Notes: generated by a model not told the origin, from the letters alone. A stretch of DNA of 64,000 nt from Streptomyces sp. 846.5 (GCF_004365705.1 NZ_SOBN01000001.1:5008001-5072000); one strand, 5' to 3'; positions 19,525 to 63,628 are shown, counted from the stretch's first letter. Numbers and translations are program-made.

Positions 19525-19536
19525 CGTCCGCGACGG

Positions 19537-21652: not shown

Positions 21653-21654
21653 CC

Positions 21655-22461: not shown

Positions 22462-22477
22462 GCCCACTGACCCCCGG

Positions 22478-25693: not shown

Positions 25694-25774
25694 CAGCCCA
25701 TTGTCCAGGCAATCCGGCGGGGCTGGGGCACGATGGGGTGACCCTGCCGCCGGGCGGGGGCGAGGGAGCTGAGA

Positions 25775-26143: not shown

Positions 26144-26180
26144 GCCGCGACCCGGGTCTTCGGCGGCTGAGGAGTGGGCC

Positions 26181-27704: not shown

Positions 27705-27810
27705 TACGTACTGTCCGAAGCAGAACACCTGTCCCGCCGCCGGAGCGTGACGGTGCGTCGGCTCTGACGGACAGCGGTACGGACAGTGGGAAGGGAACGG
27801 TGAGGGCAGG

Positions 27811-28323: not shown

Positions 28324-28399
28324 TCCGCGGCAGCCCGCAGCAGACCGCAGCCCGACCGGTTTCCCGGGAGCGCCTCGCGGTCTGGGAGAATGTCCGGCA

Positions 28400-31011: not shown

Positions 31012-31053
31012 CCGTTGTCACTCCCTGCTGCTACCGAAAGGAACCGACCTCAC

Positions 31054-31572
31054 ATGGCCGACACCCCGACCGTCACCGCCGTCACCGTGCCCGACGCCGC
31101 GGCCATGCAGGACCTCGGCCGCGGGCTGGCCTCGCTGCTGCGCCCGGGCGACCTGGTGCTGCTCTCCGGCGAGCTGGGCGCGGGCAAGACCACCCTCGCC
31201 CGTGGCCTCGGCGCGGGCCTGGGCGTCCGCAGCGCGGTCACCTCGCCCACGTTCGTCATCGCCCGGGTGCACCCCTCGATGACCGGCGGCCCGGCCCTGG
31301 TCCATGTCGACGCCTACCGGTTGGGCGGCGGCCTGGACCAGATGGAGGACCTGGACCTGGACGTCTCGCTGCAGGACTCGGTGGTGGTCGTGGAGTGGGG
31401 CGAGGGCAGGGTCGAGGAGCTGTCCGACTCCCGCCTGGAGGTACGGATCGAGCGCGCCCTCGGCGACGAGGCGCCGGACGAGGGCGACGACGAGCGACGC
31501 GTCACCCTCACGGGTCTGGGCGACCGCTGGAGCGGCACCGACTGGGCCGTGCTGCAGCCGGCGGGCGTCTGA
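31054..31572 (+). CDS. tsaE: tRNA t6A biosynthesis ATPase TsaE
   Basis: TsaE drives the TsaB-TsaD complex that puts threonylcarbamoyl on A37 of tRNA. The P-loop GELGAGKTT is at residues 39-47, followed by AVTSPTFVIARVH and DAYRLGG. 172 residues from ATG 31054, which has GAAAGGA 11 bases upstream; an in-frame codon at 31015 lacks a ribosome site. The C-terminal third has an acidic insertion (GDEAPDEGDDERR). tsaB and tsaD follow after two intervening genes. Confidence 0.93.
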   Translation: MADTPTVTAVTVPDAAAMQDLGRGLASLLRPGDLVLLSGELGAGKTTLARGLGAGLGVRSAVTSPTFVIARVHPSMTGGPALVHVDAYRLGGGLDQMEDLDLDVSLQDSVVVVEWGEGRVEELSDSRLEVRIERALGDEAPDEGDDERRVTLTGLGDRWSGTDWAVLQPAGV

Positions 31573-31631
31573 GTCCCGACAAGATCCTTGTCCTTGGTTG
31601 TTATTCCGACGCGCTGTCGGGAAGATGGTCC

Positions 31632-31835
31632 ATGTCAGCGCGTGGGAAACCAGTCACGGGAGGCGACATGTCCGGAACGACCCCCCGCCGTGGTGGGGAG
31701 GAGCAGCCCGTCGGCGTGGCCGCCCTGCTCGCCGCGACCGGCGCGGCCGCGGCGGTGAGCACACCGCCGGCGGAGCCGGAGACGGCACGCGAGGAGCCCG
31801 AGCTGATCGTGGTGGAGTCGCGCGAAGCAGCCTGA
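31632..31835 (+). CDS. Small hypothetical protein
   Basis: 67 residues from ATG 31632, or 55 from ATG 31668, the latter having GGGAGG five bases upstream and therefore more likely (starts MSGTTPRRGGEEQPVGVAAL). Composition is Ala/Glu/Pro with a short hydrophobic GVAALLAATGAAAAV stretch and an acidic end (EEPELIVVESREAA). No function recognised. It sits between tsaE and the convergent YkuD-like gene. Confidence 0.5.
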   Translation: MSARGKPVTGGDMSGTTPRRGGEEQPVGVAALLAATGAAAAVSTPPAEPETAREEPELIVVESREAA

Positions 31836-31850
31836 CCTGCGCAGTCGCCG

Positions 31851-32420
31851 TCAGGCGACGACGACGACCGTGCTGCCGACCACAGTGAACTCGTAGAGCG
31901 CCTGTCCGTCGCCCAGGGTCTCCCTGATGCCACCGGTCTTCTTTGTCGGGTCAGGGGCCGGGGTCGTGCCGTCCGTCGCGGAACTGAAGCCGAACACGGT
32001 GGTGCCGCGCTGGGCGAAGACGACGATGTTCTTGATCTCCACGCCGTCCGAGCCGGTCCGGGGGCCGGATCTGCGGCTGTTCACGTTGTAGGTCCCCACG
32101 GTGGGGCTGAGCGTGCTGGGCTGAACCGTGAAGGTCCGGGTCGCCGTGCCGGCCGCGTTCACCAGCCAGACCCGCTTGGCGCCCAGCGAGTACACCACCC
32201 GCTTGCCCGTCCCCGAGTTCGCCGGGACCGCGGCCGGCTTGGGCGAGGCGCTGGCCTTGGCGGAGGTCCCCGCCGAGGCGGAGACCGAGGCGCCCGGCTT
32301 GCCGGAAGCGGCCGAGGTCACATTGGCCGAGCTCTTGGCCTGCAGCGCCAGCACGGTGACAAGCGCGAGCGCAGACGCCGTCAGGGTGGTGACGACAGCG
32401 CCCGTACCGAACCTTGCCAC
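31851..32420 (-). CDS. Exported YkuD-like protein lacking catalytic residues
   Basis: 189 residues from GTG 32420, which has GGAGG five bases upstream; the upstream ATG 32465 has no ribosome site. An N-terminal hydrophobic segment (GAVVTTLTASALALVTVLAL) is followed by a Ser/Ala/Lys/Pro linker and a C-terminal domain. That domain reads KRVWLVNAAGTATRTFTV, VGTYNVNSRR, VVFAQRGTTVFGF, then GGIRETLGDGQALYEF and VGSTVVVV. This follows the L,D-transpeptidase order, but the expected HG and SHGC motifs are FG and KTGG, so both His and the Cys nucleophile are absent. I infer a non-enzymatic wall-binding or regulatory role. Confidence 0.75.
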   Translation of the reverse strand: MARFGTGAVVTTLTASALALVTVLALQAKSSANVTSAASGKPGASVSASAGTSAKASASPKPAAVPANSGTGKRVVYSLGAKRVWLVNAAGTATRTFTVQPSTLSPTVGTYNVNSRRSGPRTGSDGVEIKNIVVFAQRGTTVFGFSSATDGTTPAPDPTKKTGGIRETLGDGQALYEFTVVGSTVVVVA

Positions 32421-32496
32421 TCGATCCTCCAGCGGTGGAATGCCTGTGAAGTCCCAGCTTCTCATCCCGAATCCCGTGAACGTCTAACCTGGTGCC

Positions 32497-33171
32497 GTGC
32501 TTCTGCTTGCGTTCGACACCGCGACCCCCGCCGTCACCGCCGCGCTCCTGGACACGGACAGCGGGACGGTCCTCGCCTCCGCCGACCAGGTCGACGCCCG
32601 GCGCCACGGTGAGCTGCTGCTTCCCGCCGTCGACCGGGTGCTGCGCACCGCCGGCGTCGGCAAGGAGCAGCTCGGCGCGCTGGTGGTCGGTGTCGGCCCG
32701 GGTCCGTACACCGGGCTGCGGGTGGGACTGGCGACGGCCGCGGCGCTGGGGCACGCCCTCGGCATCCCGGTGCACGGCGTCTGCACGCTGGACGGCATCG
32801 CCCACGCTGCCCGCGCGGCGGGCCTGCAGGGCGCCTTCACGGCCGCGACGGACGCCCGCCGCAAAGAGGTGTACTGGGCCTGCTACGACGCCGCAGGGGC
32901 CCGTGTGGACGGTCCGCACGTGGACCGTCCGGCCGAGGTCGCCGAGCGGCTCGGGCAGCTGCCGGCGGTGGGCGCGGGCGCGCTGCTGTACCCGGAGGTG
33001 TTCCGCGACGTGCCCGCGGGCATGCCCGAGCACCAGTCCGCGGCGGCGCTGGCGACGTACGCGGCCGCCGAACTCGCCGCCGGACGCCCGCTGCTCCCGC
33101 CGACGCCGCTGTACCTGCGCCGTCCGGACGCCGAGGTGCCCAAGAACTACAAGACGGTGCTTCCGGCATGA
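32497..33171 (+). CDS. tsaB: tRNA t6A biosynthesis protein TsaB
   Basis: This 224-residue ASKHA-fold partner of TsaD starts MLLLAFDTATPAVTAALLD. The VGVGPGPYTGLRVGLATAAA motif is characteristic, as is ATDARRKEVYWACYD. GTG 32497 has no clear ribosome site, but TAACCT at 32484-32489 could be a -10 giving a leaderless transcript. Its stop overlaps the rimI ATG (ATGA), starting the tightly coupled tsaB-rimI-tsaD set. Confidence 0.94.
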   Translation: MLLLAFDTATPAVTAALLDTDSGTVLASADQVDARRHGELLLPAVDRVLRTAGVGKEQLGALVVGVGPGPYTGLRVGLATAAALGHALGIPVHGVCTLDGIAHAARAAGLQGAFTAATDARRKEVYWACYDAAGARVDGPHVDRPAEVAERLGQLPAVGAGALLYPEVFRDVPAGMPEHQSAAALATYAAAELAAGRPLLPPTPLYLRRPDAEVPKNYKTVLPA

Positions 33172-33683
33172 GCGAGGTCCCGAATCTGCGGGAGATGCGC
33201 TGGTGGGACATCGCCCCGGTGCTGGAGCTGGAGCGCGAGCTGTTCCCGGAGGACGCCTGGTCCGCCGGGATGTTCTGGTCCGAGCTCGCCGACACCCGGC
33301 ACCCCCGCGCGACCCGCTGGTACACCGTCGCCGAGGACGCCCGGGGGGCGGTCGTCGGCTACGCGGGGCTGATGGCGGTGGCCGGCAGCGGGGACGTGCA
33401 GACCATCGCCTCGGCCAGGAGCCACTGGGGCAGCGGCCTCGGCGGCCGGCTGCTGGCCCGGCTGATCGACCAGGCCTCGGCGGCCGGCTGCGGCGAGCTG
33501 CTGCTGGAGGTCAGGGTCGACAACCCGCGCGCCCAGCGGCTCTACGAGCGCTTCGGATTCCGGCCCATCGGGATCCGGCCCAAGTACTACCAGCCCTCCG
33601 GGGTCGACGCCCTGGTGATGCGGCTCGACGATCTCACCACGAAGAACCACGACAACGTAGGAGCACTGAGCCAGGATGGCTGA
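33168..33683 (+). CDS. rimI: Ribosomal-protein-alanine N-acetyltransferase
   Basis: This 171-residue GNAT protein starts [20 protein letters not shown]. It has [17 protein letters not shown], typical of RimI, and an acetyl-CoA loop [14 protein letters not shown] in which the usual R-R/Q-x-x-G start is changed to R-S-H-W-G. The C-terminal [19 protein letters not shown] matches RimI of S18. Overlaps tsaB by four bases and tsaD by eight, so the three are translated together. In many bacteria rimI is fused or linked to tsaB and tsaD. Confidence 0.92.
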
Positions 33684-34770
33684 CGAACCGCTGGTCCTCG
33701 GCATCGAGACCTCCTGCGACGAGACCGGCGTCGGCATCGTCCGGGGCACCACCCTGCTCGCCGACGCGGTCGCCACCAGCGTCGAGGAGCACGGCCGCTT
33801 CGGCGGCGTCGTCCCGGAGATCGCCAGCCGGGCGCATCTGGAGGCGATGGTCCCCACCGTCCAGCGGGCCCTGGACGAGGCCGGGATCAAGGCGAGCGAC
33901 CTGGACGGCATCGCCGTCACCGCGGGCCCCGGCCTGGCCGGAGCGCTGCTGGTCGGCGTCTCGGCGGCCAAGGCCTACGCCTACGCCCTGGACAAGCCGC
34001 TGTACGGGGTGAACCACCTGGCCTCGCACATCTGCGTGGACCAGCTGGAGCACGGACGGCTGCCCGAGCCGACGATGGCGCTGCTGGTCTCCGGCGGGCA
34101 CTCCTCGCTGCTGCTGACCTCCGACATCACCAGCGACGTCCGCTCGCTGGGCGCGACCATCGACGACGCGGCCGGCGAGGCCTTCGACAAGGTCGCCCGG
34201 GTGCTGGGCCTGGGCTTCCCCGGCGGCCCGGTGATCGACCGTTACGCGGCCGAGGGCGACCCGGAGGCGATCAAGTTCCCGCGCGGCCTCAGCGGTCCCC
34301 GTGACGCCGCTTACGACTTCTCCTTCTCCGGCCTGAAGACCGCCGTCGCCCGCTGGATCGAGGCGAAGCGGCGGGCCGGCGAGGAGGTGCCGGTCCGGGA
34401 CGTCGCCGCGTCCTTCCAGGAGGCGGTCACCGATGTGCTGACCCGGAAGGCGGTCCGGGCCTGCAAGGACCACGGCGTGGAGCATCTGATGATCGGCGGC
34501 GGGGTGGCCGCCAACTCCCGGCTGCGGGCCATGGCGCAGGAGCGCTGCGAGCGCGCGGGCATCGAGCTCCGGGTGCCCCGGATGAAGCTCTGCACGGACA
34601 ACGGCGCGATGGTGGCCGCGCTCGGCTCCGAGATGGTCTGGCGCAACCGCCGCCCCTCCGCCTTCGACCTGTCGGCGGACTCGTCGCTGCCGGTGACCGA
34701 GACCCATGTCCCGGCCGCTGTCCCGGCCGCGCCGGTCTCCCACGACGAGCTGCACCGGATGTCCGAGTAA
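33676..34770 (+). CDS. tsaD: tRNA t6A transferase TsaD
   Basis: The catalytic subunit transfers threonylcarbamoyl from TC-AMP to A37. The metal ligands His114 and His118 are in [26 protein letters not shown] opens the ASKHA fold, and [17 protein letters not shown] and [14 protein letters not shown] are present. Length 364 residues. The C-terminal 25 residues ([20 protein letters not shown]) form an extra Pro/Ala tail. Start overlaps rimI by eight bases. Essential in most bacteria. Confidence 0.95.
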
Positions 34771-34861
34771 TCCTTACCTGATTGACTACTGGGAACTGCC
34801 TGGGAATCGCTAGCGTCCTGTTCCGTGCGTATGCGCATGCGTACGAACGGGCACGTCAGGC

Positions 34862-35764
34862 ATGGAGCGGCAGACGGTGGAGCACGTCCTGGGAAGCTGG
34901 AGCGGCAGGGCCCTGGGCACGACGGCGGGGGCGCTGGCCCTGGCGGCGCTCGTGACGGCCTGCCGCGGGAGCGGAGGCGCGGCCCCGGCGGCCGGGACGA
35001 GCGCCGGGGCGGTGGGTGCCAGTACTTCGGCCTCCGCCCCCTCCGCGACCACCGGCGGGATGTCCACCGACGCCGCGCTCTGGTCCAAGTGGGGCCTCAC
35101 CCCGCTGAACCCCACCCCGGCCCCGCCGGCGGACAAGCCGATCAAGCTGACCAGGACCGGCAAGGTCCCGGTCTTCCGCTCCGTGCCGACCACGCAGAAG
35201 GTCGTCTTCATCACCCTCGACGACGGCGCCGAGAAGGACCCCCGCTTCGTCGCGATGATGCGCGACCTCAGGGTCCCCTTCACGATGTTCCTGATGGACG
35301 ACGCCATCAAGACCGACTACGGCTACTTCAAGTCGCTGCAGACGCTCGGCGACAGCATCCAGAACCACACCCTGCACCACCCGGCGATGAGCACCGTCTC
35401 GGCGGCCCGGCAGCGGGAGGAGGTCTGCGGCGACCAGAAGATCATCACCACCGAGTACGGCGCCGCGCCCTTCCTGTTCCGCCCGCCCTACGGCGACGGC
35501 GCCTACTCGTCGACCCTCAACGCCTCGGTCCAGGCCTGCGGCCCGCGCGCCGTCGTCTACTGGAAGGAGACGATGCAGATAACCGGTCTGCAGTACCAGA
35601 ACGGTGACAAGCTCCAGGACGGCGACATCATCCTGGCCCACTTCCGCGGCCCCTCGGAGCTCAAGGGCGAGACCATGACCGCGATGTTCGCCAACCTGCT
35701 CAAGCGGATCCAGGAGCAGGGCTTCACGGTCGCCCGCCTGGACGACTACATCCAGAAGCCCTAG
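34862..35764 (+). CDS. Lipoprotein polysaccharide deacetylase (CE4)
   Basis: 300 residues. A lipobox LVTAC (Cys34) follows a hydrophobic signal, so the protein should be membrane-lipidated and external. The NodB domain has ITLDDGAEKD (Asp120/121), NHTLHHP (His169, His173), FRPPYGDGAYS and ILAHFRG, all five CE4 motifs in modified form. It would remove N- or O-acetyl groups from wall or other glycans. The stop TAG overlaps the stop of the convergent methyltransferase in a shared CTAG (35761-35764). Confidence 0.9.
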   Translation: MERQTVEHVLGSWSGRALGTTAGALALAALVTACRGSGGAAPAAGTSAGAVGASTSASAPSATTGGMSTDAALWSKWGLTPLNPTPAPPADKPIKLTRTGKVPVFRSVPTTQKVVFITLDDGAEKDPRFVAMMRDLRVPFTMFLMDDAIKTDYGYFKSLQTLGDSIQNHTLHHPAMSTVSAARQREEVCGDQKIITTEYGAAPFLFRPPYGDGAYSSTLNASVQACGPRAVVYWKETMQITGLQYQNGDKLQDGDIILAHFRGPSELKGETMTAMFANLLKRIQEQGFTVARLDDYIQKP

Positions 35765-36963
35765 CGGGCAGCTTGTACAGGCTGCCCGAGCAGCATCGTC
35801 GGGGCGCCGGCCGCCCGGGTCAGGAAGACCGTGCAGGAGTTCGGCCCCTCCGGCTTGAGCTTGCGGCGCAGCTCCTCGGGCTCGATCGCCGAGCCGCGCT
35901 TCTTGACCACCACGGTGCCGACCCGGCGTTCGCGCAGCAGCGCCTTGAGCTTCTTCAGGCCGAAGGGCAGCACGTCGCTGATCTCGTAGCAGCCGGCGAA
36001 GGGCGTGGGACGGAGCTCGTCGGCTGTCAGGTAGGCGATGGTGGGATCGATCAGGCCGGCGTCCAGCTGCTCGGCGACCTCGGCGACCAGGTGGGCGCGG
36101 ATCACCGCGCCGTCCGGCTCGTAGAGGTAGCGGCGGACCGGTCCGGCCTCCGGGTCCGGCAGTCGACCACCCGTGAGGGTGACGCCGCCGGGCAGCAGGG
36201 TCGCCCGATGGGGGTGCTCCGGCGCGGCCCCGGTGCCGAACCAGAGCACGGCCTCCTTGACGTCCCCGGCGTCCGAGACCCACTCGGCCTCGGCGCCCTC
36301 GGGGACGGCCTGGTGCGGGATGCCGGGGGCCACCTTGAGGGCGGCGAACGGGGTCTGCCGTGCCGCGGTGACGGCCCAGCTCAGCGGAGGCGAGTAGGCC
36401 TCAGGATCGAAGATCCTGCCCCGGCCGCCACGACGCGCGGGATCGACGAACACAGCGTCAAATCCCGTCAGTGCCACGTCCGCCACGTCGCCGCAGCGCT
36501 GCTGGATCAGCCCGTCCAGCCCCAGCGCCGCGGCGTTGGCCTCGGCGACCGCGCAGGTGAGCGGGGAGCGGTCGACGGCGAGCACCTCGATGCCGGCCCG
36601 CGCCAGCGCGATCGCGTCGCCGCCGATGCCCGAGCACAGGTCGGCGAGGCGGCGTACGCCCAGCGCCTTGAACCGGGCCGCGCGCCAGTCGGCGACGCTG
36701 CTCCGGGTCGCCTGCTCGACCCCGTCCGGGGTGAAGTACATCCGGGCCGCGTCCGCCGCGCCGAACTTCGCCGCGGCCCGCTGCCGCAGCCCGGCCTGGC
36801 CGATCGCCGCCGACACCAGCTCCGCGTCATGGCTGCGCCGCAGCCGGGTCGCGACCGCGAGCTCCTGCCCCGGCCGGAAGTCCGCCAGCTCGGCCAGCAG
36901 GGCCTGGCCCTCGTCGGTCAGCAGGGCACGGAACGATTCGATCTCCACCGCACCATCATCCAT
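35761..36963 (-). CDS. Class I SAM-dependent methyltransferase, THUMP-like C-terminal domain
   Basis: 400 residues. The Rossmann core has LADLCSGIGGDAIALARAG (SAM motif I near 130), VLAVDRSPLTCAVAEANA (II) and FDAVFVDPARRGGRGRIFDP (IV), a DPARRGGR variant seen in a conserved actinobacterial family with a THUMP-like C-terminus (VVVKKRGSAIEPEELRRKLK). RNA methylation is likely but the target is unknown. The ATG at 36963 lies only 15 bases from the CIRCE operator upstream of groES, so this divergent gene could be affected by HrcA. Confidence 0.87.
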   Translation of the reverse strand: MDDGAVEIESFRALLTDEGQALLAELADFRPGQELAVATRLRRSHDAELVSAAIGQAGLRQRAAAKFGAADAARMYFTPDGVEQATRSSVADWRAARFKALGVRRLADLCSGIGGDAIALARAGIEVLAVDRSPLTCAVAEANAAALGLDGLIQQRCGDVADVALTGFDAVFVDPARRGGRGRIFDPEAYSPPLSWAVTAARQTPFAALKVAPGIPHQAVPEGAEAEWVSDAGDVKEAVLWFGTGAAPEHPHRATLLPGGVTLTGGRLPDPEAGPVRRYLYEPDGAVIRAHLVAEVAEQLDAGLIDPTIAYLTADELRPTPFAGCYEISDVLPFGLKKLKALLRERRVGTVVVKKRGSAIEPEELRRKLKPEGPNSCTVFLTRAAGAPTMLLGQPVQAAR

Positions 36964-52965: not shown

Positions 52966-54345
52966 ATGGTCGCCGCCGCAGTCTCCACACCTGACGCAGT
53001 CGTCATCGGAATGGGTCCCGGAGGGGAGGAGGTGGCCGGCAGGCTCGCCGACGCGGGCTGGGACGTCGTGGGCGTCGACGACCGGCTGGTCGGCGGCGAG
53101 TGCCCGTACTGGGGCTGCATACCCTCGAAGATCATGGTCCGGGCCGGGAACCTGGTCAGGGAGGCCCACCGGGTGCCGGGTTCGGCCGGGCACAGCCGGG
53201 TGCAGACCGACTGGCGGCCGGTCCACCGCCACGTCCAGCAGGCGACCGACGACTGGGACGACAAGGTCGCGGTGGACCGCTTCACCAGCCGTGGCGGCAC
53301 CTTCCTGCGCGGGACCGGGCGGCTCACCGGGCCGGGCGAGGTCAGCGTCGTCGGCCCGGACGACTCGGAGACCGTGCTGCGCCCGCGCCGGGCCCTGGTC
53401 CTCGCCGTCGGCGCCAAGCCGTCCGCGCCGCCGGTGCCGGGGCTGGCCGGGACGCCGTACTGGACCAACCGGGAGCTGATCGAGGCCGAGGAACTGCCGT
53501 CGTCGCTGCTGGTGCTGGGCGGCGGGGCGATCGGCCTGGAGCTCGGGCAGGCGGTGCAGCGCTTCGGCTGCGAGGTCACCGTGCTGGAGGCGCAGCAGCG
53601 GCTGCTGGGGCCGGAGGAGCCGGAGGCGGCGGAGCTGCTGATGCGGGTGCTCGCCACCGAGGGCCTGGAGATCCACACCGGGGCCGAGCTGGTCTCCGTC
53701 GGCTACGACGGACGGCGGTTCAACGCCGTCTGCCGCCGGGGCGAACGGCTCAGCGCGGAGCGGCTGCTGGTCTCCGCCGGTCGGCGGGTGGACCTGGAGC
53801 GGCTGGGCGCGTCGGTGCTGGGCGTTCCGGCCGACGCCCGGGCGCTGCCGGTGGACGAGCGGATGCGGGTGCTGGGCGCCCCGGGGGTGTGGGCGATCGG
53901 GGACGTCACCGGCAAGGGCGCGTTCACGCACATGTCGATGTACCAGGCGGACGTCGCGGTACGCGGCATCCTGGGGCAGGGCGGCCGGGCCGCCGAGTAC
54001 CACGCGGTGCCGCGGGTGACCTTCACCGATCCCGAGATCGGCGCGGTCGGCCTGACGGAGGCTCAGGCCCGGGCCCAGGGCCTGGCGGTGCGGACCTCGG
54101 TGACCGACCTCGCCGCGAGCGCCCGCGGCTTTGTCCACGGCTCGGGCAACGACGGCTTCATCAAGCTGGTCGCCGCCGGCGGCGTCCTGGTCGGCGCCAC
54201 CGCGGCCGGCCCCACCGGCGGCGAGGTCCTCGGCCTGCTCACCCTCGCGGTGCAGACCAGGCTGCCGCTGGCCGAGCTGGCGGCGACGATCTGGGCCTAC
54301 CCCACCTTCCACCGGGCGGTGGGGGAGGCGCTGAAGGGGCTGTGA
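52966..54345 (+). CDS. FAD-dependent pyridine nucleotide-disulfide oxidoreductase
   Basis: 459 residues in the lipoamide dehydrogenase/mercuric reductase class. FAD motif VVIGMGPGGEEVAGRLA, redox disulfide C46-PYWG-C51 in GGECPYWGCIPSK, NAD(P) motif VLGGGAIGLELGQAVQRFG and the second FAD motif VWAIGDVTGKGAFTHM. The C-terminal catalytic HxxxxE pair of lipoamide dehydrogenase (HAHPT-type) is replaced by WAYPTFHRAVGEAL, so the acceptor is probably not lipoamide. Substrate unknown. Convergent with the GH26 gene, 22 bases apart. Confidence 0.9.
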   Translation: MVAAAVSTPDAVVIGMGPGGEEVAGRLADAGWDVVGVDDRLVGGECPYWGCIPSKIMVRAGNLVREAHRVPGSAGHSRVQTDWRPVHRHVQQATDDWDDKVAVDRFTSRGGTFLRGTGRLTGPGEVSVVGPDDSETVLRPRRALVLAVGAKPSAPPVPGLAGTPYWTNRELIEAEELPSSLLVLGGGAIGLELGQAVQRFGCEVTVLEAQQRLLGPEEPEAAELLMRVLATEGLEIHTGAELVSVGYDGRRFNAVCRRGERLSAERLLVSAGRRVDLERLGASVLGVPADARALPVDERMRVLGAPGVWAIGDVTGKGAFTHMSMYQADVAVRGILGQGGRAAEYHAVPRVTFTDPEIGAVGLTEAQARAQGLAVRTSVTDLAASARGFVHGSGNDGFIKLVAAGGVLVGATAAGPTGGEVLGLLTLAVQTRLPLAELAATIWAYPTFHRAVGEALKGL

Positions 54346-54367
54346 GCGGGGACGCGAATGCGGCGGC

Positions 54368-55723
54368 CTACGGGCGCAGCAGGGCCATCACAGCCGATCC
54401 GTGACCCCCGGTCAGAACCCGCGCGGAGGTGTAGGTCTGCTTCACGTTCGGGCTGGTGTTGTTCTTGGTCAGCGCCTGGCCCCAGACCGTCCACATCACC
54501 CAGGGGCTGCGGTCGAGGGTCTTCGGCTGGGCCTTGCCGAGCGGGACGTAGAAGGACTCGGCGAGCACCCGGGGCTTGCGGAAGCGGGCCAGGTCCTTGT
54601 ACCACTTCGCGGTCCAGGCGCCGCCCTCGAACGGGTGGTCCGGGCTGTCGCTGTAGTCGTCCACGCCGACGAGGTCCACCAGGCCGTCGCCGGGGTAGTA
54701 GTCCCACGGGTCGCGTCCGCCCACGCCGTCCCAGGCGAGCGGGGCCCAGGTGAAGAGGAGGTTGTGCAGGCCGCGCGAGCCGACGAGGTAGTCGTAGGCG
54801 ATGCCCCAGAGCCGTCGGTACTGCTCGGGGTCGGCGGCCGTCCACCAGAAGCCGGTCCTGGTGTCGATCGCGTTCATCTCGTGGAACGGGCGCAGCAGCA
54901 CCGGCACGTCGCAGGAGGCCAGGTAGGTCAGATGGTCGGCCAGGAAGGACAGATCCTGGATCAGGGCCTGGTGTTCGGTGCTGCCGGCGGTGAGTACGCG
55001 CTCGATCCAGTGGGCGTCGTGCGCGGCCGGGGAACTGCTGCGGAGCGTCTGCGCGTAGGCCTTGGTGGGGCTGCCCGGCCAGGGCTGGTGGAAGGACATG
55101 CCGACCAGGCCGGACGGGGCTCCGCCGGTGCCGGGGAGCGTGCTCGCCGAGCCGTCGCACCGCGGTTCCGTCCCGCTGGGGTTGTACGAGCCGTCGGCGG
55201 AGCGCGGCAGTCCGCGCCAGACCCCCACCGCGAGGTCCACCACGTCGTCGGTGTAGCCCCAGCCGGGGCGGCAGGTCGGCCACACCGCCCGGGAGTACGT
55301 CCGGGAGCGTCCCACCCCCCAGCCCTGCTCGCCGTACCCGGGCCCGAGGTCCACCTCCAGGAAGCCGGGCAGGCGTCCGGTGATGTCGGCGGCCTTGCGG
55401 TAGTAGTACCCGGGCGGCTTGGCGCCCGAATAGTCGCCGTAGTCGGCGTTGTAGAGCTCGTTCTGCAGCTCCACATGCTGGCCGATGATCGTCTGCGACT
55501 CCACGCCGCTCCTGGCCCGGTTCTCCAGGCCGGCGAGCATGCGGTAGACGCCGGCGGCCGAACTCGTCGCATGCGGGTCGCGCCTGGAGAGCTCGGTCTC
55601 GACGGCGATCGCGGAAGCGCTGCTCGGCGTGGACAGGGTATAGGCGCCGACCAGTGCTCCGCCCACCATGGCCCCGCCTCCGGCAAGGACTGAACGCCGG
55701 CCTATACCGCCAGTACGCCTCAC
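54368..55723 (-). CDS. Secreted glycoside hydrolase family 26 protein (GH26-1)
   Basis: 451 residues from GTG 55723, chosen because GAGGGAG lies about eight bases upstream; GTG 55753 is an alternative. The N-terminus RRTGGIGRRSVLAGGG followed by a hydrophobic run to SSASA looks like a Tat-type signal. The GH26 barrel has acid/base Glu282 in RPFHEMN and nucleophile Glu389 in VLAESFY, with WAPLAWDG between. GH26 enzymes are mostly beta-mannanases, also lichenases and xylanases. It carries an insertion of about 100 residues before the barrel (GYYYRKAADITGRLPGFLEV region). Last gene of a four-gene leftward operon. Confidence 0.88.
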   Translation of the reverse strand: MRRTGGIGRRSVLAGGGAMVGGALVGAYTLSTPSSASAIAVETELSRRDPHATSSAAGVYRMLAGLENRARSGVESQTIIGQHVELQNELYNADYGDYSGAKPPGYYYRKAADITGRLPGFLEVDLGPGYGEQGWGVGRSRTYSRAVWPTCRPGWGYTDDVVDLAVGVWRGLPRSADGSYNPSGTEPRCDGSASTLPGTGGAPSGLVGMSFHQPWPGSPTKAYAQTLRSSSPAAHDAHWIERVLTAGSTEHQALIQDLSFLADHLTYLASCDVPVLLRPFHEMNAIDTRTGFWWTAADPEQYRRLWGIAYDYLVGSRGLHNLLFTWAPLAWDGVGGRDPWDYYPGDGLVDLVGVDDYSDSPDHPFEGGAWTAKWYKDLARFRKPRVLAESFYVPLGKAQPKTLDRSPWVMWTVWGQALTKNNTSPNVKQTYTSARVLTGGHGSAVMALLRP

Positions 55724-55824
55724 GTGCTCTGCTCCCTCACAGGTCGGTCTCACAGAGATCGTAGGTGACCGACTGCGGTCAGAAATCCCGACCCTCCCGG
55801 CCGGTGACGCCGGAGCCGTCCTGT

Positions 55825-56523
55825 CTAGTCGTCACTCTGGTCCAGCCGCAGCACGGCTGACAGCGCGTAGCCGGCGACACCGTGGCCGGCGGCGGCCTGC
55901 TCGGCGACGGTGAGGTAGAGGTAGCGCCCGTGCACGGCGTGGGTGATCGCGCAGGTCCCGGGGTCCTTGCAGAAAACGGCGGGGACGCCGCTGCCGTACA
56001 GCGGCTCGACCGTGCCCTTGAAGGCGTCGTCCGCAGACCTGGCCTCGGCGGCGGTGTGGAACACGGCGATGCCCACCGTCACGGCGCTCCTGTCGGACAC
56101 ATGGGTCGCGCGCAGGACCTCGGTGCAGACCTCGCTCCTCAGCAGGCTGCCGAGGCCGCCCTCGGTCCCCTTCCAGCAGGGGCTGGTCGTCTCCGTCGCC
56201 CTGCGGACGAACTTCTGCCCGTCGATCGTCAGGGACTGGTGGTTCAGCACCGCGTTGGCGTGCAGCGCGGCCGCGGAAGGGCTGCTCGATGCCGCAGCGG
56301 TCGCGGTCTCGGTCGCGCTGACGGACGGGGCAGCCGTGGTCCTCGTGGAAGTCCCCGTGAGCACCACCGCGCCGACGGCGATGCCACTGGCGGCCAGGGC
56401 GAAACCGACGACCGCGCCGGTGATCGTCAGGATCCGCCTGCGGCGGATCCTGGACTCGTTCCGGTCGGCCAGAGCCTGCCAGTCCGGTTCGCTGCGCGGC
56501 GGCGTACTCATGTCATCGGGCAT
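55825..56523 (-). CDS. Membrane-anchored protein, function unknown (paralogue of 12855-13880)
   Basis: 232 residues from ATG 56523, with AAAGGA seven bases upstream. A short cytoplasmic N-terminus (RNESRIRRRR) leads to one transmembrane helix (31-56), a Thr/Ala linker and an external domain of about 150 residues with four cysteines. It shares ...EPLYGSGVPAVFC, GRYLYLTVAE and SAVTVGIAVFHTAAEARSAD with the other copy. It lies between the two leftward GH26 genes, which suggests a role with the surface polysaccharide, but no activity can be named. Confidence 0.82.
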   Translation of the reverse strand: MPDDMSTPPRSEPDWQALADRNESRIRRRRILTITGAVVGFALAASGIAVGAVVLTGTSTRTTAAPSVSATETATAAASSSPSAAALHANAVLNHQSLTIDGQKFVRRATETTSPCWKGTEGGLGSLLRSEVCTEVLRATHVSDRSAVTVGIAVFHTAAEARSADDAFKGTVEPLYGSGVPAVFCKDPGTCAITHAVHGRYLYLTVAEQAAAGHGVAGYALSAVLRLDQSDD

Positions 56524-56551
56524 GGCTGGGTCCTTTCACAAGTGGGTCCTT

Positions 56552-57616
56552 TCACGGGCGGGTCGCTGCCACGGTGGGCACCGGCCAGTCCCGCAGGTTC
56601 AGCGAGTCGAGGCCGTGCCGGAACGCGGACTTGGTGGCGGGGTCGATGTCGAAGCGGTAGTCGTGCAGCCCGCCCTCGTCCTGGCTGTGCTGGAACCACA
56701 CGAACCCGATGGTGCGCGGATTCTGCCGGATCCAGCGGAAGAGGCCGGCGGTCCAGCCGGCCTGCTCGGCTCCGGGCTCGGCGCCGGTCTCCGAGATCAG
56801 CAGGGGCTTGTCGCTGATCCGGTAGAGGATGTGCGCGGTGGAGTCCAGGACCTCGCCCGCGGTCTTCTCCCCGAAGCCGTAGGCGTCCACGCCCATCCAG
56901 TCGACGTACTGGTCACCCGGGTAGAGCGAGGCCAGGTCCACGTCGGGGGCCCCGCGCAGGACGTTGGGGGCCCAGAGCCAGATGACGTTGGCGGCCCCGA
57001 CGGCGCCGAAGAGATCGTGGACGTGCCGCCAGGCCTTGACGTAGTCACCTGACCGGTTGCCGCTGTTCTTCTCCGACCAGGGGTACCAGTCGCCGTTCAT
57101 CTCGTGCGCGAAGCGCAGCACGACCGTCCGCTGCTGTGCCTTGACGGCCTGGGCGAAGCGCAGGATGTACGGGTCGAAGTCGCCCGAGGCGATCTTCTGC
57201 AGCGAGTACGCGGGCTGGTCCGCCTCCTTGGAGGCGTCCTGGGGCTCCCAGGTGAGCAGCGGGAGCGCGCCCTGGTCGTAACTCGACTGCACAGCCGCCG
57301 GGTCGAACTCCTGGTCCCAGCGCTGGAAGTACTCCAGGATCGTCGGGTGCCGGCCGCCCGCGGCGACGGTGACCGCGTCGGTCGTGGCCCGGGCCGGGGC
57401 GTGGTACGTGCTGGCGCCGAAGTAGACGCCGTCGGGGTGCAGGTAGGCGCTCTTGCCGAGCGGCGCCGGCGCAGTGGCCGAGGACGACGCTCCCGGCATC
57501 CGGGCGACCGGTATTCGGCTTCCCTGGCCGGAGGAGCAGGACGCGAGTGCCAGCAGCACCGCTGCCATCAACACGCCGGCGCGCCATCGGGTCAGGGCGG
57601 GGGTCGGGCGCCTCAA
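56552..57616 (-). CDS. Lipoprotein glycoside hydrolase family 26 protein (GH26-2)
   Basis: 354 residues if started at TTG 57616, which overlaps the ugd stop as TTGA and gives an ideal lipoprotein signal ([20 protein letters not shown] then LALASC, Cys27). GTG 57643 is an alternative; longer frames run inside ugd. Catalytic Glu172 in RFAHEMNGDWYPW and Glu276 in LLISETGAEPG. The sequence GDYVKAWRHVHDLFGAVGA and YPGDQYVDWMGVDAYG are shared almost word for word with GH26-3. It should sit on the outer face of the membrane next to the synthase. Confidence 0.86.
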   Translation of the reverse strand: MRRPTPALTRWRAGVLMAAVLLALASCSSGQGSRIPVARMPGASSSATAPAPLGKSAYLHPDGVYFGASTYHAPARATTDAVTVAAGGRHPTILEYFQRWDQEFDPAAVQSSYDQGALPLLTWEPQDASKEADQPAYSLQKIASGDFDPYILRFAQAVKAQQRTVVLRFAHEMNGDWYPWSEKNSGNRSGDYVKAWRHVHDLFGAVGAANVIWLWAPNVLRGAPDVDLASLYPGDQYVDWMGVDAYGFGEKTAGEVLDSTAHILYRISDKPLLISETGAEPGAEQAGWTAGLFRWIRQNPRTIGFVWFQHSQDEGGLHDYRFDIDPATKSAFRHGLDSLNLRDWPVPTVAATRP

Positions 57617-58932
57617 GGGCGCCCCAGCGCGCGATAGGTCCACCCGGCGGAGCGCCAGAGTCCGTCGTCCAGCGCGTTGCGGCCGTCGATGATCCGTGGA
57701 ACGGCGACCGCCTCGCGGACCGCGACCGGGTCCAGCGCGCGGAACTGCTTCCACTCCGTCAGATGCAGGACCAGGTCGGCGCCCTGCGCGGCCGCGACGG
57801 CGTCGGTGGCGAAGTCCAGGGTCGGGAAACGCTTGCGGGCGTTGTCCATGGCCTTGGGGTCGTAGACGCGCACATCGGCGCCGAGGCGCTGGAGCCGGTC
57901 GGCGATGTCGAGGGCCGGCGAGTCGCGGATGTCGTCGGAGTCGGGCTTGAACGCCGCGCCCCAGACCGCGATCCGACGACCGGTCAGCGTTCCCTCGCAG
58001 AGTTCGCGGGAGAGTTCCACCACCCGGTCCCGGCGGCGGAGGTTGATGCTGTCGACCTCGTGCAGGAAGCCCAGGGCCTGGCCGACGCCCAGTTCGTCGG
58101 CGCGGGCGAGGAACGCGCGGATGTCCTTGGGCAGACAGCCTCCGCCGAAGCCGACGCCGGCGTTGAGGAAGCGCCCACCGATCCGGGTGTCATGGCTCAG
58201 CGCCTCGGACAGCCTGGCCACGTCGGCGCCGGACGCCTCGCAGACCTCGGCCATCGCGTTGATGAAGGAGATCTTGGTGGCCAGGAAGGCGTTGGCCGAG
58301 GTCTTGACCAGCTCGGCGGTGGGGAAGTCGGTGACCACCAGCGGGGTGCCGGCGTCCAGCAGCGGGGCGTAGACCGCGCGCAGGTCCGCCTCCGAATCCG
58401 CTGCCGCGGCGCCGATCCCGAAGACCAGCCGGTCCGGGCGGAGGGTGTCCTCGACGGCGAAGCCCTCGCGCAGGAACTCGGGGTTCCAGGCGAGCCGGGC
58501 CCCGGCGCCGACCGGGGCGAGCGCGGCCAGGCGCTCGGCGAGTCGCGCGGCGGTGCCGACCGGGACCGTGGACTTGCCGACGACCAGGGCCGGCCGGGTC
58601 AGATGCGGGGCCAGGGAGTCGATCACCGCGTCCACGAACCGGAGGTCCGCGCCGGGACCGTCCTGCCGCTGCGGGGTGCCCACGCAGGAGAAGTGCACGT
58701 CCCCGAACTCGGCCGCCTCCTGGTACGAGGTCGTGAAGCGGAGCCGTCCGTCGGCCACGTGCCGGGAGAGCAACTCCTCAAGTCCGGGTTCGTAGAAGGG
58801 GACGCGACCCGCCCGGAGCGCCGCGATCTTGTCCGGTTCGACGTCGACACCCAGGACCTCGTGACCCAGCTCCGCCATGCAGGCTGCGTGGGTCGCGCCG
58901 AGATAGCCGGTTCCTATGACGGTAAGACGCAT
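57613..58932 (-). CDS. UDP-glucose 6-dehydrogenase
   Basis: 439 residues. It oxidises UDP-glucose to UDP-glucuronate using 2 NAD+. NAD motif [20 protein letters not shown] at the N-terminus, STVPVGT, the catalytic Cys266 in [16 protein letters not shown] and Lys/Asn of [20 protein letters not shown]. First gene of the leftward operon, starting 380 bases from the divergent synthase. It supplies the precursor for a glucuronate-containing polymer; the alternative UDP-mannose/GDP-mannose dehydrogenase assignment is less likely but related. Confidence 0.93.
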
Positions 58933-59312
58933 TGAAGCCGTTGCTCCCTAGAGGTGTCACCAAGTTGTGAGTCCGGTGAGCTTAACCGCTGTGTTTGACG
59001 CGCTCCGCACCGGAACTTATTGACAAGGTTCGCAATATGCGGCAAGGCGGACATGATTCGACAGAACCTTTGTGGTTTCTGATAGTTGGAACGGTCACCG
59101 ATTCATCACCAACCCATAACGCTTCCTTGGAAGGCGGGAATGTATTAGGTCAAATGTCTGGTAAGAGAAACTTACCCTCTGCTTATCATTGGCCCAGCCG
59201 CGCTGGTGCGGCCCGAGTTGCGCCAGTGGCCCCTGCGGCGGCGTGGCGGTTCGGACGTACACACGCGACCGTTGCCCCGGGGGGAGGGACGGCCGCCCGC
59301 GAATGGGAAGTC
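58933..59312. promoter_or_regulatory. Low-GC divergent promoter region
   Basis: 380 bases between ugd (-) and the GT2 gene (+). The part 59010-59190 is much richer in A/T than its surroundings (for example TGTATTAGGTCAAATGTCTG). A possible rightward promoter is TTGACG (58995-59000), 17 bases, TATTGA (59018-59023); TTGACA at 59020-59025 has no matching -10. The frame is open here but has no coding character. It is a good candidate for Lsr2-type silencing. Confidence 0.5.
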
Positions 59313-60632
59313 ATGCTGGCGTTCTTGCTGGAGCTCCGTGAGGGCTGGATCGACGGAGCGGTGTACCCGTTCGCCGTGTTCATGTCGATGATTTGGGTGC
59401 TCTGGGTGGTGAAGGTCGTCCTGGCCCGCCGCTACAAGCCCTGGGTGCGGCCGTACGAGGCCACCACCTCGGTGCTCATTCCGGTGGTGGACGAGCCCGA
59501 GGACCTGTTCCGCGATGTACTGCGACGGATCATCGAGCAGCAGCCCACCGAGATCCTCGTGGTGATCAACGGCCGTGCCAACCCGGTGCTCGAGAAGATC
59601 TGCGACGACCTCGGCGTGTGGTGGACCTGGACCGAGATCCCCGGCAAGCGCAACGCGCTGAAGGTGGGCCTGGAGGCCTGCAGCGGTGACATCGCGGTGC
59701 TGGTCGACTCCGACACCATCTGGACCGAGGGGACGCTGCGCGAGCTGATCAAGCCGTTCCGCGATCCCGGGGTCGGCGGCGTGACCACGCGTCAGCGCAT
59801 CCTGGACCCGAGCCGCACCGTACTGACCCGCTGGGCGGACTGGCTGGAGAGCGTGCGCTGCCAGTACTCCATGCCGGCCATGAGCGTCCTCGGCACCGTC
59901 GGCTGTCTCCCCGGCCGCACCATCGCCTTCCGCAGCCACATCCTCTTCGACTGCCTGGACGCGTTCCTCAGCGAGAAGTTCCTGGGCGTCTTCCTGGAGG
60001 TCAGCGACGACCGGACGCTGACCAACTACACCCTCAAGGCCGGGTTCCGGACGGTCTACCAGTCCACCTCGCTGGTGTACACGGATGCGCCGCTGCAGCT
60101 CAAGAAGCTGGCCAAGCAGCAGTACCGGTGGGCCCGGGGCTCGCAGTACAACACGCTGCGGATGATGCCGTGGATGCTCCGCCGGGCGAAGATGCTGGCG
60201 CTCTTCTACTTCGCCGACGTGGCGATCCCCTTCGTGCTGCTCGGCACCTTCGGCTCCTGGGTGGTCACGGCGTTCCGCAGCGCCCGCCCCAGCGTCTACA
60301 CCGATCTGCCGCTGCCCAGCGACCCGACCCAGTCGCTGGTCGCGCTGATCGGCCTGGCCGCGCTGATGTCGTTGATCTCCATCATGGTCCGGTTCGGTCG
60401 GCACTTCGCCTACCGGCCCCAGGACCTGCTCTTCCTGCCGACCTTCATGGTGATCAACACCCTGCTGCTGCTGCCGGTGCGCCTGCTCGGCTTCTTCCGC
60501 TGCGCGCACAACGCCAGTTGGGGCACCAGGGCGGACAGTTTCGCGGGCGAGAAGTCGCACAGTGCGCTGGTCGCCGTCCCGTACCTCATCGGCGGAATCA
60601 TGCTGGCCGGCTCGGTGATGATGAGTGTCTAG
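59313..60632 (+). CDS. Processive family 2 glycosyltransferase (polysaccharide synthase)
   Basis: 439 residues from ATG 59313; the frame is open to 58995 but that part is AT-rich leader. One N-terminal membrane helix (17-39), a cytoplasmic GT-A domain and four C-terminal spans (about 294-320, 343-361, 375-395, 417-439). Processive-synthase motifs are complete: Asp60 (VVDEPED), DSD (132-134), SDDRTLT (231-237) and QQYRW (269-273), as in hyaluronan and cellulose synthases. It should polymerise a nucleotide sugar and extrude the chain. No PilZ domain is present. Its end overlaps the GH26-3 start by eight bases. Confidence 0.92.
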   Translation: MLAFLLELREGWIDGAVYPFAVFMSMIWVLWVVKVVLARRYKPWVRPYEATTSVLIPVVDEPEDLFRDVLRRIIEQQPTEILVVINGRANPVLEKICDDLGVWWTWTEIPGKRNALKVGLEACSGDIAVLVDSDTIWTEGTLRELIKPFRDPGVGGVTTRQRILDPSRTVLTRWADWLESVRCQYSMPAMSVLGTVGCLPGRTIAFRSHILFDCLDAFLSEKFLGVFLEVSDDRTLTNYTLKAGFRTVYQSTSLVYTDAPLQLKKLAKQQYRWARGSQYNTLRMMPWMLRRAKMLALFYFADVAIPFVLLGTFGSWVVTAFRSARPSVYTDLPLPSDPTQSLVALIGLAALMSLISIMVRFGRHFAYRPQDLLFLPTFMVINTLLLLPVRLLGFFRCAHNASWGTRADSFAGEKSHSALVAVPYLIGGIMLAGSVMMSV

Positions 60633-61836
60633 GTCGAACTCGCGGCGTCAGAAGAGGCTCCACTGGTGGAACCGCGGCAGTGGCATCCGGCTGAGGGTCT
60701 GGATGGCGGTGAACGCGGTGCTGCTCTCGGCGCTGTCCTACGGTGTCTACGCCGCGGTGGTGTCCAACGCCCAGGGGCCGGGCTTCACCGGCCTCGGGGC
60801 CAGCAGCGGCAGCGCACCGAATCTGATCGAGCGCCTGAAGGGTGCGTCCACCACGGTCGTGCCCGACAGGTCGCAGTTCCTCAAGCCGACCGACGGCGAC
60901 TACTTCGGCGCGTCCACCCTGAAGGCCCCCTATGACGCCAAGGAGCTCGCCGACTTCACCACCTCCGACGGCGGCATCCATCCCACGATGGCCTCCTTCT
61001 TCCTGCAGTGGAACCAGAAGTTCAACCCCTACGCCATCACCGCGGCCTACGATAACGGCACCATCCCGGTGATGACCTGGGAGCCCTGGGCCGGCGGCAC
61101 CCAGAATCCGGCCGGCGGCGGGGTCATCCTGCAGAGCAACGTCAAGCAGCCCGCGTACAAGCTGTCGAACATCTACGACGGCAAGTTCGACGCCTACATC
61201 ACCTCGGTGGCGCAGCAGATCGCGGCCGCCCAGTGGCCGATCGTGATCCGCTTCGCGCACGAGATGAACGGCGCCTGGTACCCGTGGTCCGAGAAGGTCA
61301 ACGGGAACGCGGCCGGTGACTACGTGAAGGCATGGCGGCACGTCCACGACGTGTTCGCGAAGGCCGGCGCGACCAATGTGATCTGGGTGTGGTCGCCCAA
61401 CATCATCCGTCCGGTGCCCAACACGGCCCTGGCGCCGCTCTATCCGGGTGACGCCTATGTCGACTGGATCGGGATGACCGGGTACGGGGTGCAGGAGAAC
61501 ACTCCCGCGATCACGTTCAACCCCACCTTGGCGCAGCTCCGCAAGATCTCGAAGAAGCCGATCATGATCATGGAGACCGGGGCCCAGCCGGACAAGCACC
61601 AGGCGTCCTGGGTCTCGGCGTTCTTCCCCTGGCTGAAGGCGAATCCGGACGTCATCGGATTCATCTGGATGGAGAAGACCCGCGGTACGGGCGCGCGGGC
61701 GGACTGGCGGTTCACCACCGACCCCAAGATCCAGGCGTTGTTCCAGAGCGGACTCGCCACCCTCCGCCTCACCACCGGCCAACCGGCTTCGGCGACATCC
61801 GCGAGCCCGTCCCCCTCGTCAGCGAGCACACCATGA
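60625..61836 (+). CDS. Membrane-anchored glycoside hydrolase family 26 protein (GH26-3)
   Basis: 403 residues from GTG 60625, overlapping the synthase stop. A basic N-terminus (RSNSRRQKRLHWWNRGSGIR) and one helix (about 25-47, no cleavage site) make it a type II membrane protein with an external GH26 barrel. Acid/base Glu213 in RFAHEMNGAWYPW and nucleophile Glu317 in IMIMETGAQPD. A Ser/Pro/Ala tail ends the chain. Coupled to the synthase, it probably trims or releases the nascent polymer at the export site. Confidence 0.89.
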   Translation: MSRSNSRRQKRLHWWNRGSGIRLRVWMAVNAVLLSALSYGVYAAVVSNAQGPGFTGLGASSGSAPNLIERLKGASTTVVPDRSQFLKPTDGDYFGASTLKAPYDAKELADFTTSDGGIHPTMASFFLQWNQKFNPYAITAAYDNGTIPVMTWEPWAGGTQNPAGGGVILQSNVKQPAYKLSNIYDGKFDAYITSVAQQIAAAQWPIVIRFAHEMNGAWYPWSEKVNGNAAGDYVKAWRHVHDVFAKAGATNVIWVWSPNIIRPVPNTALAPLYPGDAYVDWIGMTGYGVQENTPAITFNPTLAQLRKISKKPIMIMETGAQPDKHQASWVSAFFPWLKANPDVIGFIWMEKTRGTGARADWRFTTDPKIQALFQSGLATLRLTTGQPASATSASPSPSSASTP

Positions 61837-63566
61837 ACGACCCCTATCCGGAGCAGTACGTCGACCCGTACGCCCAGCCGTATGCTCAGTCGTACGCCGA
61901 GCCGTATGCGGATCCGTATGCGCAGCCGTACGCCGGCTCCTTCTCGACCGCCTACCAGGACCCCTATCCCGAGCAGGACTCACCCGACACGCTCAAGTTC
62001 GCCGTCCTTCCCCAGCCGTCGCCGGTGCGGACTCCGCGGACACCGCAGCCGCAGCCTGCTTCGGCACCGGCTCAGCCGAAGCCCGCCGACGGGCAGCAGA
62101 GCGAGCCGGCCCGGCGTGGAGCCGTGCCGACCGCAGTCCTGTTCCTGCTGCCGGCCCTGGTCACCCTGGTCATGGGCGGCTACGGCCTGGGCAGCCGTCA
62201 GGTCGGCCAGGAGGAGTCGGCCACCTGGTGGGCGGCCAGTCTCTCCTGGGGCGGTCTGGGCCGGCTGCTCGATCACACGGACGTGGTGCTCGCCCCCTTC
62301 TACGTGCTCATGCACGCATGGGTGTCGCTCGCCGGGACCTCGCCGACCGCGCTGCGGCTCCCCTCGCTGCTGGCGATGGCCGCGGCGGCCGGGCTGCTGG
62401 CCGTGCTCGGGCGGCGGATGTTCGATGCCCCGACCGGGCTGGTCGCCGGGCTGGTCTTCGCGGTGCTCCCGGTGACCAGCCAGTACGCCCAGGACGCCCG
62501 GCCGTTCGGGCCGGCGACGCTGGCCGCGCTGGTGGCCGCGGTCATGCTCTACCGGGCGCTGGACCACGAGGGTGCGGACCGCTGGGGCGGCTACGCCCTG
62601 GCGCTGCTGCTCACCGGCCTGTTCCACCTGGTCACGGCGACCGTGCTGCTCCCCTTCATGGTGCTGGTGATGGTCACCGTGCGGAGCAGGCTCGGCGCCT
62701 GGGCCTCGGTGACGGCGGTATGCGTCGTACCGATGTTCGCCTTCGTGATGCTCAGCCGGGGCGAGACCGGGCAGGCGTCCGCGACCGCCGTCGGCTGGTC
62801 GTCGCTGGAGCACTTCCCCCAGCAGCTCCTCGGCTCCGCGCACGGCGTGTTGGCCATGGCTGCGCCGGCGTTGCTCGGTGTCGTCCTGGCCGGCCGCAGG
62901 GCGTGGCCGCTGGTCACCTGGATCGCGGTACCGCCGCTGCTGCTCTTCGGGCTTCGGAACGCCAGCGACCTGTTCGACCCGTCCTACTTCGTGTTCACCG
63001 TCCCCGCCTGGGCGCTGCTCGCCGCAGCGGGACTGTGCGGGCTGGTCCGGGTGCTTCCGGGCCGGGCCTCCGGCCTGGCGGTGCGTCAGCTGATCCTGGG
63101 CGTCGTGGTGACGGCGGCGCTGGCGGCCGTGGTACTCCCCGACCTCAAGGCGGTCCGGGCCCCGCTGGTCACCGGGCAGCCCGACTTCCGGGCGGCGGCC
63201 CAGTGGCTGGACGCCCATGATCAGGCGGGCGACGGGATCACCTACTCCGGCGATCGCGGCATACCGCAGCTGACCATGGGCTATGCGCTCCGCGGTGACA
63301 GCACCGCACCGAAGAACGTCTTCCTGCAGCAGACACCGGAGCGGTCGGGCACCTACACGGGTACTCCCTGCCTTGCGCCCACCGTCTGCGCCAAGGGCTA
63401 CAAGCGGATCTGGCTGCTCTCCACGACCCAGCCCACGTCGCTCTACGCGGGGATGTCGACCCCGCTGGCGAACCTGCTGAAGCTGACCTACAAGGCGGCC
63501 TCGACGCAGGTCTTCCCCGGCGGCGTCACCCTGGTGCTGCTGCAGCAGGCGCCCGTCAAGGCCTGA
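61833..63566 (+). CDS. GT-C (GT39/ArnT-like) membrane glycosyltransferase with PYA-repeat N-terminus
   Basis: 577 residues. The first 60 are a Pro/Tyr/Ala-rich cytoplasmic tail with six tandem four-residue repeats (DPYA, QPYA, QSYA, EPYA, DPYA, QPYA), then a Pro-rich linker. From about residue 98 there are about nine membrane spans; the first external loop has GQEESATWWA (Glu127/128) where GT-C enzymes keep the catalytic acid, and SQYAQDARPFG matches the QD(A/S)RPYG signature of GT39-like families. It would use a polyprenyl-phosphate sugar outside the membrane, perhaps to branch the polymer. ATG overlaps the GH26-3 stop (ATGA). Confidence 0.86.
   Translation: MNDPYPEQYVDPYAQPYAQSYAEPYADPYAQPYAGSFSTAYQDPYPEQDSPDTLKFAVLPQPSPVRTPRTPQPQPASAPAQPKPADGQQSEPARRGAVPTAVLFLLPALVTLVMGGYGLGSRQVGQEESATWWAASLSWGGLGRLLDHTDVVLAPFYVLMHAWVSLAGTSPTALRLPSLLAMAAAAGLLAVLGRRMFDAPTGLVAGLVFAVLPVTSQYAQDARPFGPATLAALVAAVMLYRALDHEGADRWGGYALALLLTGLFHLVTATVLLPFMVLVMVTVRSRLGAWASVTAVCVVPMFAFVMLSRGETGQASATAVGWSSLEHFPQQLLGSAHGVLAMAAPALLGVVLAGRRAWPLVTWIAVPPLLLFGLRNASDLFDPSYFVFTVPAWALLAAAGLCGLVRVLPGRASGLAVRQLILGVVVTAALAAVVLPDLKAVRAPLVTGQPDFRAAAQWLDAHDQAGDGITYSGDRGIPQLTMGYALRGDSTAPKNVFLQQTPERSGTYTGTPCLAPTVCAKGYKRIWLLSTTQPTSLYAGMSTPLANLLKLTYKAASTQVFPGGVTLVLLQQAPVKA
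61863..61934 (+). repeat. 12-bp in-frame tandem repeat
   Basis: Six consecutive 12-base units of the form (G/C)AN-(C/T)CG-TA(C/T)-GC(N) encode [DEQ]-[PS]-Y-A. The tyrosine codon alternates TAC and TAT between copies, so units are similar but not identical. Confidence 0.9.
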
Positions 63567-63628
63567 CCTCGGGCCCCCTGGTTACCGACGGGTATCCATC
63601 CGGCTGGAAACGGCCTACGCTGCACGTC

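Follow-up and report, generated by a model that had tools for sequence, protein, structure and literature searches.

Gene content and chromosomal site of the locus

The window, that is, the whole 64,000-nt stretch of DNA analyzed, is part of the 9.03-Mb Streptacidiphilus-like genome of a soil actinobacterium. Coding analysis placed seven open reading frames (ORFs) with a strong high-GC3 coding signal on both sides of a divergent intergenic region, and Pfam searches assigned three GH26 proteins (all above the Pfam cut-off), a UDP-glucose dehydrogenase, a GT2 synthase and a PMT_2 GT-C protein. ORF calls, coding signal and Pfam bore out all seven genes, as well as the order and the three overlapping junctions that a preliminary description of this DNA had given. 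The features are as follows:

54368..55753, minus strand: GH26-1, mannanase-like GH26 with a twin-arginine signal, probably peripheral (Pfam, tree)
55825..56523, minus strand: single-pass membrane protein (MP), 232 aa, with four invariant cysteines and an extracellular domain resembling the PknH ectodomain
56552..57754, minus strand: GH26-2, Lic26A-like GH26 with a lipobox (LASC) (Pfam; signal read from sequence)
57613..58932, minus strand: ugd, UDP-glucose 6-dehydrogenase (Pfam)
58933..59312, no strand: intergenic region from which ugd and GT2 diverge, presumably holding both promoters (predicted from gene positions only)
59313..60632, plus strand: GT2, processive membrane synthase, 439 aa, with a hyaluronan-synthase-like fold (Pfam, PDB sequence match, 21-sequence alignment, AlphaFold model, fold searches)
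60625..60632, plus strand: 8-nt overlap GTGTCTAG, within which GH26-3 starts and GT2 stops, kept in 38 of 39 loci
60625..61836, plus strand: GH26-3, the core partner of the synthase, with an N-terminal hydrophobic helix and a Lic26A-like GH26 domain (Pfam; anchor inferred from sequence)
61833..63566, plus strand: GT-C enzyme (PMT_2), putative branching transferase using lipid-linked sugars (Pfam)

The GT2 and GH26-3 genes overlap by 8 nt (60625-60632) and GH26-3 and GT-C by 4 nt (61833-61836), while the ORF of GH26-2 begins within ugd. A real GH26-2 start near 57643, which would leave a lipoprotein signal, is more likely. For GT2, the orthologues place the start at the ATG at 59313, giving the protein of 439 aa. 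On the right, the locus is flanked by an aldehyde dehydrogenase gene (gabD2, from 63629), as described before; the kinase-type genes named as its left neighbors do lie on that side, but a dihydrolipoamide-dehydrogenase-like gene (52966-54345) intervenes between them and the locus.

The site itself was compared within Streptacidiphilus, using the window (54346-63628) and the regions L087-L091. In six congeners, the interval from the lipoamide-dehydrogenase-like gene to gabD2 measures 130-725 bp and the block is absent. The synthase locus occupies this interval here and in G013. The same site harbors ugd and an MP remnant in G003, MP alone in G010, another GT2 together with GH26-1 in G001, and ugd, another GT2 and a CBM3 protein in G005; in other congeners, the GT2 locus is found at other genomic positions. 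The insertion proposed in the preliminary description is supported at this site by the lack of the block in six congeners, but a single recent event is doubtful given the partial gene sets of G003 and G010. The site history looks like one of repeated gain and loss, and the interval like a hot spot for exopolysaccharide (EPS) genes rather than the scar of a single insertion.

Distribution of the synthase and hydrolase genes

A search for the neighborhood in other genomes recovered a conserved core smaller than seven genes. The 39 loci compared comprised 34 from one GT2 scan of named genomes (Streptacidiphilus, Actinacidiphila, Streptomyces, Actinocrinis, Curtobacterium, Frondihabitans, Frigoribacterium, Microbacterium and Actinotalea), four from additional relatives and that of the window. 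A GH26 gene lies directly downstream of GT2 on the same strand in all 39, and since the pair recurs in every orthologous locus, the clustering is not due to chance. The ugd gene belongs to the locus in 31 of the 39, so that the core genes are not scattered or unlinked in relatives, an outcome that the preliminary description had named as fatal to its proposal. The genomes of the eight loci without a linked ugd carry it elsewhere, with only a partial match in G052. Whole-genome searches of relatives found the GH26 neighbor for 12/12 GT2 orthologues at ≥57% identity, and GT2 proteins at ≤35% identity generally had none. The synthase is rare; when 395 genomes were drawn evenly from the class, 4 contained it. 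The two genes are co-inherited: the correlation between GT2 and GH26 distances is 0.91 overall and reaches 0.94 when only Streptomycetaceae are considered (Mantel p 0.0005), values that shared species history alone can yield.

The smallest form of the system was found on the Curtobacterium plasmid pTCL (L111, pTCL 19506-36750), where GT2, GH26 and ugd stand by themselves as an operon of three, with unrelated genes on either side; their annotation goes no further than glycosyltransferase, glycosyl hydrolase and dehydrogenase. Further, 11 of the 15 Micrococcales genomes searched have no GH26 other than the synthase-linked one. In many Microbacteriaceae (L054-L067, L071, L072), the GT2-GH26-ugd operon is bordered by glnE/glutamine synthetase genes on one side and another glutamine synthetase gene on the other, which appears to be a constant position in the chromosome.

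The length of the overlap between GT2 and GH26 was the same, 8 nt, in 38 of the 39 loci, from Streptomycetaceae to Curtobacterium, mostly with the sequence GTGTCTAG, GTGTCTGA or TTGTCTGA, and the GT2 proteins of the two orders that share it are just 55-57% identical. L058 is the sole locus without it, and L048 shows an apparent frameshift shortly 3' of it; on pTCL, the overlap had been annotated identically and independently. This fixed spacing argues for translational coupling of synthase and hydrolase.

GH26 is not confined to this synthase. GH26 genes of the same clade immediately follow the GT2 gene in 13 of 14 loci of a second GT2 clade, which is cellulose-synthase-like; the one other locus has a broken GT2 (G007:C4:8474579-8475999), in pieces and with an internal TGA, from an assembly that is 76% complete. 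A PMT-type GT-C gene stands beside most of these loci. Large open frames had suggested GH26-PMT fusions, which frame analysis resolved into separate overlapping genes. The genome studied here holds two more GT2-GH26-GT-C cassettes with a cellulose-synthase-like GT2:

L081:7736-12170 (C1 of the same genome, about 58-62.6 kb): cassette L081
L082:6390-12371 (C1, about 5.196-5.202 Mb): cassette L082, also with a second GT-C and a GtrA-like gene

In four genomes (L101-L104), a Lic26A-like GH26 is divergent from a polysaccharide-deacetylase-GT2 fusion, checked by Pfam in L102. The L102 fusion is reminiscent of Streptomyces MatB. The layout, first thought to be unlike any known, is therefore not unique, and its recurrence behind or beside several synthase types makes GH26 look like a general partner of actinobacterial synthases.

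A proposed pathway and its alternatives

From genes and models, we interpret the locus as a synthase-dependent pathway for an acidic β-glycan, with a probability of roughly two in three. GT2 would build a β-linked chain on the cytoplasmic side of the membrane and pass it through its own channel, while the linked Ugd would supply UDP-glucuronate. Because ugd is linked, the chain most likely contains glucuronate, probably together with glucose; a β-linked, gluco-configured polymer is suggested by the similarity of the hydrolases to Lic26A. GH26-3 would be translated in step with the synthase from a shared mRNA and, anchored on the outer side of the membrane by its N-terminal helix, would cut the emerging chain and thereby set its length or release it, and GH26-2, a putative lipoprotein, may share or extend this remodeling. 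In Streptomycetaceae only, GT-C may branch the polymer with side sugars from a lipid-linked donor. The glucuronate surface polymer envisaged in the preliminary description is retained to the extent that GT2, linked Ugd, putatively extracellular hydrolases and GT-C form a conserved unit, best read as synthase-dependent and probably glucuronate-containing. A mannose backbone, also considered there, is not indicated, since GH26-2 and GH26-3 resemble the lichenase Lic26A.

The best solved match of GH26-3 and GH26-2 was CtLic26A (E 2e-26 and 2e-30, respectively), ahead of any mannanase by about 50-60 bits for both proteins; at an identity of about 25-30%, transfer of the substrate is weak. Glutamate occupies both the acid/base and the nucleophile columns in 85/85 aligned GH26 sequences. 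GH26-1 alone is mannanase-like. It is distant from GH26-2 and GH26-3 in the GH26 tree, which carries long-branch warnings and serves coarse grouping only, and its relative in the congener G001 adjoins the same flank gene without this GT2. GH26-1 does not share the conservation of the cluster and is probably peripheral to the system, so that treating three GH26 proteins and one synthase as a unit was an overstatement. The twin-arginine signal of GH26-1, the lipobox of GH26-2 and, at the N-terminus of GH26-3, a basic stretch followed by one hydrophobic helix, all read from the sequence, suggest extracellular placement.

A Lic26A-like GH26 also suggests a substrate resembling mixed-linkage glucan, and bacterial synthases for such glucans exist (PMC10374906). 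The product could accordingly be a neutral β-glucan, either mixed-linkage or cellulose-like, in which case Ugd would serve side-branching or a different wall polymer and its linkage would be regulatory only. The loci without a linked ugd and the at least three other ugd-like genes of this genome would fit such a neutral product; against it, ugd is packed tightly into one operon with GT2-GH26 in distant Micrococcales, and on a plasmid the three stand alone, and we regard this alternative as improbable.

GT2 displays the hallmarks of processive enzymes (D, DxD, D, QxxRW and a transmembrane channel) in an alignment of 21 orthologues and in a predicted fold of the HAS/BcsA type with transmembrane helices; its motifs DSD, SDD, QQYRW and WGTR are invariant in the 21 orthologues. 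Its nearest solved relatives by sequence match in the PDB are hyaluronan synthases (HAS), and the best 13 Foldseek matches of its AlphaFold model (pLDDT 80.5) are all HAS. VIA-align of the model gave Z 25-28.5 for HAS; PcManGT scored 29.1 with fewer residues aligned, and BcsA and Chs1 about 20-22. HAS-like synthases also include makers of non-uronate polymers, such as NodC and chitin synthase. With CvHAS as the reference for residue numbering (PMC12987647), the conserved Arg348 of HAS is replaced by Tyr279 and the glycine of the HAS motif GDD by Ser231 (SDD), both invariant in the 21 orthologues. The equivalents of Lys177 and Arg341, which contact the carboxylate of GlcA, are present as K112 and R272, residues that are widespread across the superfamily and no proof of UDP-GlcA use.

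These matches, together with an Ugd linked as in has operons, would fit a true hyaluronan synthase that forms a hyaluronan coat, with Ugd as the equivalent of HasB and GH26 as an unusual hyaluronan-cutting enzyme. Ser231 and Tyr279, which led us to reject the assignment of GT2 as a hyaluronan synthase, speak against this proposal, as do the GT2 motif RWARG, which we take to be of the glucan-synthase type, and the fact that GH26 is not known to act on hyaluronan; we consider it still less probable than the neutral glucan. It is scarcely credible that the GH26 genes encode hemicellulases or mannanases for catabolism and adjoin the synthase gene by coincidence or to help the cell feed. Genome papers on Streptacidiphilus and Curtobacterium do count GH26 among the mannanases as a matter of routine (PMC7601586, PMC8565777), and GH26-1 may be a true mannanase, but the conserved overlap, the adjacency in 39/39 loci, the same GH26 clade with other synthases and its standing as the sole GH26 in most of the Micrococcales genomes argue otherwise.

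With regard to the accessory proteins of the acidic β-glycan pathway, a Pfam search returned no family for the 232-aa MP. Its extracellular domain was predicted with high confidence and matched the PknH ectodomain with Z 10.3 and an rmsd of 3.6 over 128 residues, clear of unrelated entries, a likeness which suggests that MP may act as a sensor or accessory. The outer domain also resembles MucB/RseB, more weakly. MP is conserved with the cluster in Streptomycetaceae, as are its four cysteines. GT-C is likewise present in the Streptomycetaceae loci and had no match in the Micrococcales loci of the orthologous set, which places branching outside the minimal system; its similarity to a mycobacterial mannosyltransferase is far below the cut-off and merely a hint.

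An extension of the acidic β-glycan pathway can be put forward tentatively, although we think it rather doubtful as a whole. GH26 would be a general, unrecognized partner of HAS-like, cellulose-synthase-like and deacetylase-fused synthases, and in the HAS-like class would process a new acidic glucuronate-glucose polymer resembling an oxidized mixed-linkage glucan, possibly by transglycosylation attaching the chain to the cell surface and not by plain hydrolysis.

Significance and relation to known systems

The locus suggests that plant-associated Curtobacterium and Frigoribacterium, as well as Streptacidiphilus, share a class of actinobacterial exopolysaccharide not described so far. Because the only GH26 is synthase-linked in 11/15 Micrococcales genomes, our results further suggest that actinobacterial GH26 proteins counted as mannanases or hemicellulases in surveys (e.g., PMC7601586, PMC8565777) are often biosynthetic. 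The three-gene minimal cassette is small enough to be expressed whole in a laboratory strain. The literature searched, mostly outside subscription papers so that absence is weak evidence, contained no synthase-dependent system with GH26. EPS systems with a synthase and a hydrolase are already known, and the dedicated hydrolase typical of them is present here as the GH26 gene behind every GT2; GH26 in the role of synthase-coupled hydrolase appears to be new, as we found none described.

Class I HAS acting with HasB (Chlorella virus, vertebrate and the streptococcal has operon) resemble this system in that a UDP-glucose dehydrogenase is linked and the GT2 fold agrees along almost all of the model, whereas the GT2 described here has SDD for GDD, Tyr for Arg348 and an always coupled GH26. 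In the type 3 capsule of Streptococcus pneumoniae, the HAS-like Cps3S and the UDP-glucose dehydrogenase Cps3D suffice for a Glc/GlcA polymer. Likened by description, that capsule works like the model proposed here, although we know of no GH26 partner for Cps3S. Processive GT2 synthases whose operon includes a glycoside hydrolase of their own are also known from BcsA/BcsZ, CslA/CslZ, Pel and PNAG; those hydrolases belong to other GH families, in contrast to the Lic26A-like GH26 with its fixed 8-nt overlap.

Two EPS clusters with a GH26 follow another route. The pep cluster of Paenibacillus polymyxa combines the GH26 PepM with UgdH1, but employs a Wzx/Wzy pathway with several glycosyltransferases, a flippase and a polymerase instead of a single synthase (PMC7911366). 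The actinobacterial wps-1 cluster of Actinoplanes missouriensis contains the GH26 WpsE, and all of its genes except wpsD are needed for normal sporangia; it too is a Wzx/Wzy pathway, with sulfotransferases, and its authors noted that no Wzx/Wzy cluster with GH26 had previously been characterized (PMC13390465). The closest solved relative of GH26-2 and GH26-3 is Lic26A of Clostridium thermocellum (the GH26 domain of endoglucanase H, a β-1,3-1,4-glucanase), with which they share both catalytic glutamates. Lic26A is a degrader of plant glucans, whereas GH26-2 and GH26-3 are synthase-linked and putatively cell-anchored.
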